DNA of 64,000 nt, taken from the NCBI RefSeq assembly GCF_000177215.2, contig NZ_CM001368.1, forward strand, positions 2,741,001-2,805,000, read 5' to 3'. A program made the translations under genes and the position numbers. Numbering within the stretch: position 1 is the first letter of the stretch; every line of letters starts with the position of its first letter. Below, one piece after another: positions 58,637 to 61,241 of this stretch. The notes under the pieces were generated by a model. It searched no databases and was not told the DNA's origin. It saw nothing but the letters and a program-made list of their open reading frames with translations. This DNA comes from Solidesulfovibrio carbinoliphilus subsp. oakridgensis (GTDB lineage: Bacteria; Desulfobacterota; Desulfovibrionia; Desulfovibrionales; Desulfovibrionaceae).

Positions 58637-58650
58637 CCGCCGGAGGCTAC

Positions 58651-60597
58651 ATGAAGCGAAATATCTATCTGCGCACGATTCCCATCGAGGAGGCTCTCAC
58701 CCGGGCCAAGGACGCGCTCGATCGCGAGGCCCTGCTGACGGTCGAGCGGATCGGGGCCGAACGGGCCGCCGGCCGGATCACGGCCGAGCCGGTCATGGCC
58801 CGCTATTCCTCGCCCACCTACCACAGCGCGGCCATGGACGGCATCGCCGTGCGCGCGGCCGACACCTTCCTGGCCCGGGAGGGCTCGCCGGTCCGGCTCC
58901 TGACCGGGGACGGGTTCGTGTTCGTCAACACCGGCCACCCGCTGCCGTCCGCCTTCGACGCCGTGATCATGATCGAAAACGTGGTCATGGACGGCGACAC
59001 GGCCACCATCGAATCCCCGGTCGCGCCCTTCACCCACGTGCGCCGCATCGGCGAGGATATCGTGGCCACGGAAATGATCCTGCCCCGGCACCGGCGCATT
59101 TCGGCCTACGACGTGGGGGCCCTGCTCTCCTGCGGCGCCTACGACGTGGACGTGTACGAACAGGTGCGGATCCGGGTCATTCCCACCGGCGACGAGGTCA
59201 TGGATTTCACCTCCCGCCCGGCCCCGGGCCCGGGCCAGGTGGTGGAGAGCAATTCCATGCTCTTGTGCGCCCTGGCCGACGAATGGGGCATGGCCTGCCA
59301 GCGGGTGGCGCCGATCCGGGACGACCCCGACGCCCTGGCCGCCGCCCTGGAGGAGGGGCTCAATAGCGACGCCCACATCGTGGTCATCGTGGCCGGGTCC
59401 TCGGCCGGGAGCAAGGATTTCACCCGGGCCACCATCGAGCGGGTCGGCGAGGTGCTGGTCCACGGCGTGGCCGCCATGCCGGGCAAACCGTCACTCCTTG
59501 GCGTCGCCCGGGGCAAGCTGGTGGTCGGGGCCCCGGGCTATCCGGTCAGCTCGGTGGTCTGCTTCGAGCGGCTTTTGTATCCCCTGGCCTGCTGGCTGTC
59601 CCGGGCCGAGCCCAAGACCCGCCAGACCGTGGCCGCGACGCTGGCCCGGAGCGTGCCGTCGCGCATCGGCATGGTGGATTTTGTCCGCCTGGCCGTGGGC
59701 CAGGTCGGCGACGAGTACGTGGCCCTGCCCCTGTCCCGGGGGGCCGGCAGCATCTCCACCATGACCAAGGCGCAGGCCGTCACCCAGCTGCCGCCCGAGG
59801 CCGAGGGCCTGGAATCCGGGGCCACGGTCACGGCCGAGCTTCTGGTCGACGCCGGGGAGCTGGCCCGCACCCTGGTCTGCGTCGGCAGCCACGACAACAC
59901 CCTCGACATCCTGGCCGACAGGCTCATGCGCGGCGATCCGCCCATGCGGCTGGCCTCCAGCCACGTCGGCAGCATGGGCGGCCTCATTGCCCTGCGAAAC
60001 GGCGCGTCCATGCTGGCCGGCACCCATCTCTTCGACCCGGAAAGCGGGGACTACAACTTCCCCTTCCTGGCCAAGTACCTGCCCGGCCTGGATGTGACCG
60101 TGGTCAACCTGGCCATCCGCCACCAGGGCCTGATCGTGGCCCCGGGCAATCCCAAGGGGATCACCGGCATCGCCGACCTGGCCAGGGACGGGGTCCGGTA
60201 CCTGAACCGCCAGCGCGGGGCCGGCACGCGCATCCTTTTCGACCACCACTTGGCCAAAAGCGGGCTGACGCCGGACCGGATCTCCGGCTACGACCGGGAA
60301 GAGCACACGCACATGGCCGTGGCCGTCAACGTCAAGACAGACGCGGCCGACTGCGGCCTGGGCGTCTTTGCCGCGGCCAAGGCGCTCGGCCTCGATTTCG
60401 TGCCCCTGGCCCGGGAGCGCTACGATCTGGTCATCCCCGCCGCCTACCGCGACGACCAGAAGATCGCGGCCGTTTTCGCGGTGGTGGGCAGCGAGGCCTT
60501 CAAGGAGCAGGTCCGGGCCCTCGGCGGCTACGAGACCGACTGGAGCGGCCGGATCATGGCGCCGGGCATGGGCCTGCCCGGGGAGCCGGCGGCGTAG
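58651..60597 (+). CDS. MoeA fused to a periplasmic-binding-protein-like (LysR substrate) domain
   Basis: The 648-residue protein joins a MoeA-type molybdopterin domain (1 to about 410) to a PBP-like domain (about 430-640). MoeA blocks include HSAAMDGIAVRAAD, GHPLPSAFDAVIMIENV, IPTGDEVMDF and AGSSAGSKDFTRAT. The PBP part has SHDNTLDILADRL, SSHVGSMGGLIAL, GTHLFDPESGDYNFPF and RQRGAGTRILFDHHL. The second domain may sense or deliver molybdate or tungstate, or regulate the enzyme; this is not established. It gives the organism two MoeA types, perhaps for molybdenum and tungsten. Confidence 0.92.
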   Translation: MKRNIYLRTIPIEEALTRAKDALDREALLTVERIGAERAAGRITAEPVMARYSSPTYHSAAMDGIAVRAADTFLAREGSPVRLLTGDGFVFVNTGHPLPSAFDAVIMIENVVMDGDTATIESPVAPFTHVRRIGEDIVATEMILPRHRRISAYDVGALLSCGAYDVDVYEQVRIRVIPTGDEVMDFTSRPAPGPGQVVESNSMLLCALADEWGMACQRVAPIRDDPDALAAALEEGLNSDAHIVVIVAGSSAGSKDFTRATIERVGEVLVHGVAAMPGKPSLLGVARGKLVVGAPGYPVSSVVCFERLLYPLACWLSRAEPKTRQTVAATLARSVPSRIGMVDFVRLAVGQVGDEYVALPLSRGAGSISTMTKAQAVTQLPPEAEGLESGATVTAELLVDAGELARTLVCVGSHDNTLDILADRLMRGDPPMRLASSHVGSMGGLIALRNGASMLAGTHLFDPESGDYNFPFLAKYLPGLDVTVVNLAIRHQGLIVAPGNPKGITGIADLARDGVRYLNRQRGAGTRILFDHHLAKSGLTPDRISGYDREEHTHMAVAVNVKTDAADCGLGVFAAAKALGLDFVPLARERYDLVIPAAYRDDQKIAAVFAVVGSEAFKEQVRALGGYETDWSGRIMAPGMGLPGEPAA

Positions 60598-60605
60598 CGG
60601 AAAAG

Positions 60606-60685
60606 GATGGGCCTCCGGCGGCCGGGGCTTTGCCCCGGACCCCACCGGGAGGGGGTCACCCCCTCCCGGACCCTCCCGAACGGGG
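60606..60685 (+). repeat. Dispersed palindromic repeat after the MoeA-LysR gene
   Basis: The GGCCTCCGGCGGCC end module starts about nine bases after the stop. A CCGGGGC/GCCCCGG hairpin (60622-60638) and a 25-bp palindrome at 60645-60669 follow, the latter nearly identical to the one at 58491-58515. Confidence 0.78.
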
Positions 60686-60726: not shown

Positions 60727-60999
60727 ATGGACTGGAAACTGCTGGCTACGACCTTTGCCACCATCTTCGTGGCCGAACTCGGCGACAAGACCCAGCTCGC
60801 CTGCGTGCTGACGGCCGCGGATTCGCGAAAACCCTGGATCGTCTTTGCCGGCTCGTCCCTGGCCCTTGTCGCCACGAGCCTGCTCGGCGTCATTTTCGCG
60901 GAGTTCATCTGCAACTTCGTGTCGCCGGACATCATCAAAAAAGTCGCGGCCGTGGCCTTCGTGGTCATGGGCGTGCTGATCTATTTCGACAAGCTCTAG
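60727..60999 (+). CDS. Half-size GDT1/TMEM165 (UPF0016) family membrane protein
   Basis: The 90-residue protein has three hydrophobic segments and the diagnostic motif VAELGDKTQ (ExGDKT). Full-length members have two such halves and transport manganese or calcium; this is a single half and would have to dimerise. The C-terminus ends VVMGVLIYFDKL. Its stop codon overlaps the AGGAGG ribosome binding site of the next small gene. Confidence 0.88.
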   Translation: MDWKLLATTFATIFVAELGDKTQLACVLTAADSRKPWIVFAGSSLALVATSLLGVIFAEFICNFVSPDIIKKVAAVAFVVMGVLIYFDKL

Positions 61000-61007
61000 G
61001 AGGCCCC

Positions 61008-61241
61008 GTGGAAGAAGGACGCCTTGCCTTTGACCTGCGGACCATGTGCTGAGGCCTCGGCCTGGAGATAGGTTGGTATCTCCGCCTTTCGAGGGCCCGG
61101 GAACTGGAATTCCTCGTCGCCCCGAGCGCCCGGCCGGTCCTTGACGACCAGCTGGTCACGGTCTCCGGCTGGCGGCTGGCCGTGGAAACGGAGGAGGGAT
61201 TTTTGCGCGCCCGTTTTACGCGCGAGGCGCGCCCCGGCTGA
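61008..61241 (+). CDS. Candidate selenoprotein: small gene with in-frame UGA at codon 15
   Basis: A perfect AGGAGG (60998-61003) sits four bases before GTG 61008, so translation initiation is well supported. The frame reads MEEGRLAFDLRTMC and then UGA at 61050-61052. It continues without interruption, GLGLEIGWYLRLSRARELEF onward, to a UGA stop at 61239-61241: 77 codons in all. The 62 codons after the first UGA show about 80% G/C at third positions by my count. No ATG, GTG or TTG in this frame lies near the UGA, so the second part is reachable only by read-through. A SECIS-like hairpin follows the UGA at the correct distance. The result would be an adjacent Cys14-Sec15 pair followed by Gly, faintly like the C-x-G site of HesB/IscA-type proteins. 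A pseudogene is the main alternative. Confidence 0.6.
61050..61097 (+). promoter_or_regulatory. Bacterial SECIS-like stem-loop directly after the in-frame UGA
   Basis: GGAGATA (61064-61070) and TATCTCC (61077-61083) form a perfect 7-bp stem with the apical loop GGTTGG. The stem begins 11 nt after the UGA, the spacing I recall for E. coli fdhF, and the loop begins with G as bacterial SECIS loops do. A lower stem is possible between GGCCTCG (61053-61059) and CGAGGGCC (61090-61097) with one bulge. The bulged U of the E. coli element is not evident. Confidence 0.55.

Follow-up and report, generated by a model that had tools for sequence, protein, structure and literature searches.

This locus raises the question whether the UGA at codon 15 of a short open reading frame ends translation or is read as selenocysteine (Sec). 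The window, i.e. the whole stretch of 64,000 nucleotides that was analysed, had been proposed in an initial annotation to hold a new selenoprotein gene with a SECIS-like hairpin after the UGA. The positions given there for the Shine-Dalgarno site, the GTG, the UGA, the stem, the loop and the stop proved exact when checked on the sequence (Table 1). From sequence comparison we find that the segment from 61008 to 61241 is almost certainly a selenoprotein gene with predicted Sec insertion. The proposed reading is supported by the conservation of the UGA, of the hairpin and of the downstream protein as well as by a Cys at the same site in paralogues. The predicted TusA-like fold, the Cys paralogue, a gene cluster conserved at other loci and the restriction of the GDT1-adjacent placement to two genera go beyond that annotation.

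Table 1. Positions of the predicted selenoprotein gene and of further features in the window.
Feature	Position	Strand	Details	Basis
Predicted selenoprotein ORF	61008..61241	+	GTG start; 77 residues; TGA stop 61239-61241	sequence and relatives
AGGAGG, Shine-Dalgarno-like	60998..61003	+	four bases before GTG 61008; overlaps GDT1 stop codon 60997-60999	sequence
UGA, predicted to be read as selenocysteine	61050..61052	+	codon and residue 15; 62 codons follow before the stop	conserved in relatives, Cys in paralogues
SECIS-like hairpin	61064..61083	+	7-bp stem, GGAGATA 61064-61070 and TATCTCC 61077-61083; loop GGTTGG; begins 11 nt past the UGA	
GDT1 domain protein (PF01169)	60727..60999	+	directly 5' of the ORF; neighbour in only 16/59 loci	
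MoeA fused to periplasmic-binding-like domain (PF12727; NF011068 type)	58648-60597		upstream of GDT1	family scans
21-mer repeat copies	60623-60643; also 6105, 23694, 37746, 54491		last four on the minus strand	

The ORF, translated with the TGA read through, matched 111 of 199 genomes of the window's taxonomic family at E ≤ 0.01. In these genomes 116 matches were obtained, of which 109 carried an in-frame TGA and the other seven were Cys forms. A few of the 109 showed a second TGA or a TAG or TAA inside the aligned range. A profile built from 50 sequences (43 Sec and seven Cys forms) detected the protein family in 161 of the 297 sampled genomes of the window's order, a count that takes in some genomes with the Cys form only, and an in-frame UGA was present in most of the matches listed from these genomes. 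Homologues of the downstream part, which the initial annotation had assigned to the same protein, are thus numerous, and their frame is not full of stops. The members are spread over 35 of the 55 sampled genera of the order, even though a standard gene caller would be expected to miss the gene because it would stop after 14 codons.

In a sample of 395 genomes from the phylum eight matched, six of them from the window's taxonomic family, to which the convincing matches were confined. The two remaining matches were partial, lay near the threshold, had no UGA at the site and were judged to be chance. A scan of contigs returned four Cys-form loci, all metagenome-assembled (Deltaproteobacteria, delta proteobacterium or Proteobacteria); its query had Sec back-translated as Cys, such that the spread of the Sec form is not measurable from it. 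The family was not found in the plasmid collection. In one genome of the window's own genus (G152) selA was present and the family gave no match, and those genomes of genus g40 that were listed with no match are likewise devoid of the gene, although many of the genus have selA. These absences are apparent losses.

The consensus around the site reads DLRxKCUGxGxEIGWYLRxSRA. All 50 profile sequences have D9, L25 and either Sec or Cys as residue 15, and the residue after U/C is Gly in most members. Counts of codons, gene context, hairpin pairing and folding were taken from 59 Sec loci, a set made up of the top-ranking matches and of selected genera rather than of all matches. These loci were picked by a motif pattern in which position −6 must be Asp and position −1 either Cys or Gly; the conservation of these two positions is therefore partly built in. 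A further Sec locus (L109) fails the pattern and stands outside the 59; it has both the UGA and the stem.

Taken at face value the UGA is a plain stop codon, and the folding energy of the hairpin is ordinary (see below). In that case the downstream frame would either be translated on its own from an internal start or be what is left of a decayed gene. However, the DLRxKC segment before the UGA is conserved along with the residues after it, and the Cys paralogues run continuously through the site. Moreover, over 56 codons past the UGA in 13 sequences from the window's genus (78 pairs) we obtained a median dN of 0.13 and a median dS of 0.79, with a median dN/dS of 0.17 and a largest value of 0.36. 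Pairwise differences at codon positions 1, 2 and 3 numbered 602, 513 and 1737. This pattern indicates that the part downstream of the UGA is under purifying selection, and we regard termination at the UGA as very improbable.

Many genomes contain a family member that has no UGA and carries Cys in place of Sec, within a CGLVP motif. Since this Cys form and the Sec gene often coexist in one genome, the Cys form is a paralogue. Read-through alone could also be due to ordinary suppression, e.g. as Trp, given that the sequence by itself does not name the inserted residue. Yet it is Cys and not Trp that occupies the site in 15 of 15 aligned paralogues, a covarying hairpin lies at SECIS distance, and the Sec machinery is complete in the genome. 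The initial annotation had called for a check of selA, selB, selC and selD, and all four were found: tRNA-Sec at 82.7 bits (with two further loci just above the cut-off), SelB at 358 bits, SelA at 613.5 bits and SelD at 331 bits. The selD gene, located at C1:837194-838114 of the same genome (L182), itself contains one in-frame TGA at a U-A-A-K motif, from which SelD is probably a selenoprotein here as well. Across the 297 genomes of the order, the family occurred in 153 of 247 with SelA versus eight of 50 without (P = 2e-9, a value that ignores relatedness); the completeness of these eight assemblies ranges from 63 to 93%. Suppression with a residue other than Sec is hence a negligible prospect.

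Folding energy turned out to be a weak argument for a SECIS element. For the window the energy of the hairpin region was unremarkable, both against dinucleotide shuffles (z −0.35) and against synonymous recodings (z −0.79). The 59 loci showed a modest shift against synonymous recodings, with a mean z of −1.04, 27 loci below −1 and none above +1. An Rfam search of the region gave one match, which was far below the cut-off. Because of the weak energies we relied on covariation and on the Cys paralogues as control instead.

Covariation of the stem was evaluated for 56 of the 59 loci, omitting L012, L021 and L064, whose 51 bases repeat another row. The 7-bp stem was paired in 92.9% of the cells, and 28 stem cells were changed on both sides; neither value was reached in any of 500 shuffles. 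Three stem pairs showed a double change, which 28 of the 500 shuffles also reached. When the register was slid, 36 to 70% of the cells were paired with at best 20 double-change cells, and the covariation score was 0.173 for the best slid registers compared to 0.212 for the true one. The pair of columns 19 and 30 was never broken, being A-U in 26, G-C in 22 and G-U in 8 of the 56 sequences, whereas the loop-closing pair was broken in 16. Most of the compensating changes are synonymous, since column 19 is the first position of a codon for Ile or Val, rarely for Ala, and column 30 the third position of a codon for Tyr or His (for Arg at one locus). Over all 59 loci ATA was combined with TAT in 23 and GTA with TAC in 13 (Ile/Tyr and Val/Tyr). 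When the first codon started with A, the third base of the partner was T in 28 of 28 loci; when it started with G (31 loci), the partner base was C in 23 loci and T in eight. ATA makes up 3 of the 74 Ile codons in three flanking genes. In the Cys paralogues a mean of 2.9 of the seven pairs was kept (n = 15), compared to 6.5 in the Sec loci (n = 59); one paralogue of the 15 (L118) can form six of the seven pairs. The proposed SECIS-like hairpin is thus kept by compensatory change and its stem is mostly absent from the Cys paralogues.

The neighbouring genes differ between loci. Directly upstream of the ORF in the window lies the GDT1 gene, and GDT1 precedes the Sec gene in 16 of 16 loci from the window's genus and from genus g41, to which this placement is limited. 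Together with the overlap of the Shine-Dalgarno site and the GDT1 stop codon this arrangement could mean that the selenoprotein works with the GDT1 cation antiporter. In 43 of the 59 loci, however, GDT1 was absent from the examined flanks, and in 39 of those a gene for a flavodoxin-fold FMN reductase follows immediately 3' of the Sec gene. A partnership with GDT1 is consequently improbable, and a general dependence on it is ruled out by its presence at only 16 of the 59 loci. At four of the 59 loci neither GDT1 nor the flavoprotein was seen within the examined flanks.

Among 20 loci of about 12 kb, 17 contained genes for both the flavoprotein and a metallo-hydrolase (PF00753) with weak similarity to GloB and a persulfide dioxygenase. 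Several loci showed a fuller order of nitroreductase, metallo-hydrolase, Sec gene, flavoprotein and ComF; the genes past ComF were assigned as rplU, rpmA, obg and proB by inspection, not by family scans. The flavoprotein has four invariant Cys in a CX2CX2C...C pattern in 17 aligned members. This resembles the CX2CX2CX5-7C motif carried by iron-sulfur flavoproteins, as given in the available part of PMC3164229. Because the place between the metallo-hydrolase and the iron-sulfur-flavoprotein-like gene is spread over several families of the order, it seems to be the ancestral one, and the GDT1 site would be a relocation. In the window's genus the Sec gene and the flavoprotein gene stand apart. 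In the window's own genome metallo-hydrolase, flavoprotein and comF lie together with no Sec gene between them (L179, C1:3606890-3607456). The flavoprotein is found in 283 of the 297 genomes from the order, including genomes that lack the Sec gene. Being nearly universal, it makes co-occurrence uninformative as a functional tie, such that co-occurrence does not bind the Sec gene to the flavoprotein.

To characterize the product, AlphaFold2 was run on the 50-sequence profile with Cys in place of Sec. The resulting model (pLDDT 89.6) comprises strands at residues 5-9, 32-37, 55-62 and 65-72 and helices at 17-27 and 39-51. The top match by VIA-align was the SirA-like protein 3hz7 (Z 9.5, rmsd 1.9, 69 aligned), followed by YeeD (8k1r, Z 9.3) and E. 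coli TusA (3lvj, Z 8.7), with IF3-like and Smr domains at 8.4 or below. Foldseek also returned 3hz7 as best match (E 0.012). For the Cys form, which was modelled separately (pLDDT 78.4), 3hz7 came first as well (Z 8.7), followed by an Smr domain (Z 8.4).

Profile comparison by hhalign was carried out against 19 TusA-family sequences from related genomes. The 50-sequence profile gave an E of 5.6e-4 and a probability of 30%, the Cys forms alone 1.3e-4 and 54%, and 74 sequences together 9e-5 and 60%. Column-shuffled TusA profiles scored lower in 30 of 30 cases and, for the 74 sequences together, in 100 of 100. In all three comparisons D9 and residue 15 aligned with the conserved Asp and the catalytic Cys of TusA. 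The placement of the predicted Sec on the catalytic Cys thereby receives moderate support from sequence. PF01206 was matched neither by any of the 50 members (E ≤ 1) nor by the protein of the window (E ≤ 10), and the CPxP motif is absent from the family members; for these reasons we did not file the family under TusA/SirA. It is at most a distant relative of TusA, and homology is not secure.

The fold may alternatively have arisen without kinship to TusA, i.e. a selenoprotein of other function would have reached the common IF3-like beta-alpha-beta-alpha-beta-beta arrangement independently. Domains of the IF3, Alba and Smr types reach Z 7 to 8.4, which is near the values of the TusA-family chains, the hhalign probabilities are moderate, and PF01206 is unmatched. 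On the other hand 3hz7 tops both structure lists, the three profile alignments match Asp and Cys/Sec to those of TusA with no gap in between, and the shuffled profiles scored lower throughout. We consider an independent origin unlikely. The probable reading is a fold like that of TusA in which Sec occupies the carrier position, and the joint claim of a selenoprotein with this fold and this Sec placement is likely to the same degree.

The product resembles the TusA/SirA-like carriers (PF01206) in its predicted fold and in being a small single-domain protein, and like them it has a conserved Asp that lies six residues ahead of the active Cys/Sec. It differs from them in that Sec replaces Cys, a Cys precedes the Sec, CPxP and a PF01206 match are missing, and an extra GWYLR segment is conserved. 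SirA-like proteins have been tied to SelD by genome context, and the available parts of the two sources (PMC2432076, PMC5322559) describe no Sec form. These YedF/SirA-like proteins likewise combine a SirA-like domain with a tie to selenium; unlike the new family they carry CPXP, and YedF a DsrE-like domain. The adjacent Cys-Sec pair (CU motif) is shared with known selenoproteins such as KCU-star, SaoL, SaoC, MbdU and HgcA (PMC13188914, Table 1), which are other families and whose NCBIfam models miss the new protein.

No model of Pfam or NCBIfam (June 2026) matches the family. The NCBIfam selenoprotein models left the window protein unmatched, the best of the 50 members reaching E 0.029 with an unrelated model, and a search of PDB sequences gave nothing convincing. 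A 2026 catalogue lists 119 prokaryotic selenoprotein families or subfamilies, none of them TusA/SirA-like (PMC13188914); the families of Haft and Tolstoy 2025 were compared through this catalogue alone. Nothing matching the family appeared in the available parts of deep-Sep (PMC12013277) and of a 2007 stop-codon survey (PMC1914089), and no Sec-containing TusA/SirA protein was found in the open-access literature that was searched. The locus would thus add a selenoprotein family whose Sec sits in what is likely the working position of a carrier fold; no Sec form of this fold is described in the sources consulted.

For the predicted selenoprotein we propose the following mechanism. SelB and tRNA-Sec would decode the UGA at 61050 as selenocysteine, aided by the hairpin at 61064-61083. 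The product would be a single TusA/SirA-like beta-alpha-beta-alpha-beta-beta domain, in which Sec takes the place of the TusA persulfide Cys just before the first helix and directly follows a Cys. At this site a selenol next to a Cys would be a stronger nucleophile. The Cys-Sec pair might act as a reactive selenol, accepting sulfur or selenium and handing it on; alternatively it might cycle between selenol/thiol and selenenylsulfide. Electrons could come, in the arrangement taken as ancestral, from the iron-sulfur-flavoprotein-like protein of the adjacent gene. We favour, though tentatively, a relay for chalcogen or redox equivalents that the flavoprotein would serve, with the reaction and partners that this implies, and the ubiquity of the flavoprotein neither supports nor excludes a relay reset by it. 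Rather doubtful is the bolder version, namely a first selenocysteine-based chalcogen carrier of TusA fold whose Sec and neighbouring Cys carry sulfur or selenium and are reset by the flavoprotein, with the mnmE-adjacent Cys paralogue as its sulfur version. Its possible targets would include SelD, tRNA U34 or persulfide metabolism.

The Cys paralogue was found just after mnmE in six of eight examined contexts (near 5 kb in L169, L170 and L173-L176, not in L171 and L172). Family scans confirmed the mnmE of L169; the other five were recognized by similarity to that gene. Four further Cys-form loci (L068-L071) have a different gene context. As mnmE is a gene of tRNA U34 modification, its vicinity hints at a sulfur-relay role of the Cys paralogue in U34 thiolation. 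The Sec gene and its paralogue, which often occur in one genome, are a natural pair of Sec and Cys forms with one fold and would allow testing what selenium adds to sulfur-relay chemistry.

As a separate observation, the window contains five copies of a GC-rich 21-mer that differ by at most two mismatches, where 0.01 occurrences are expected (Table 1). It is a dispersed repeat of intergenic type.
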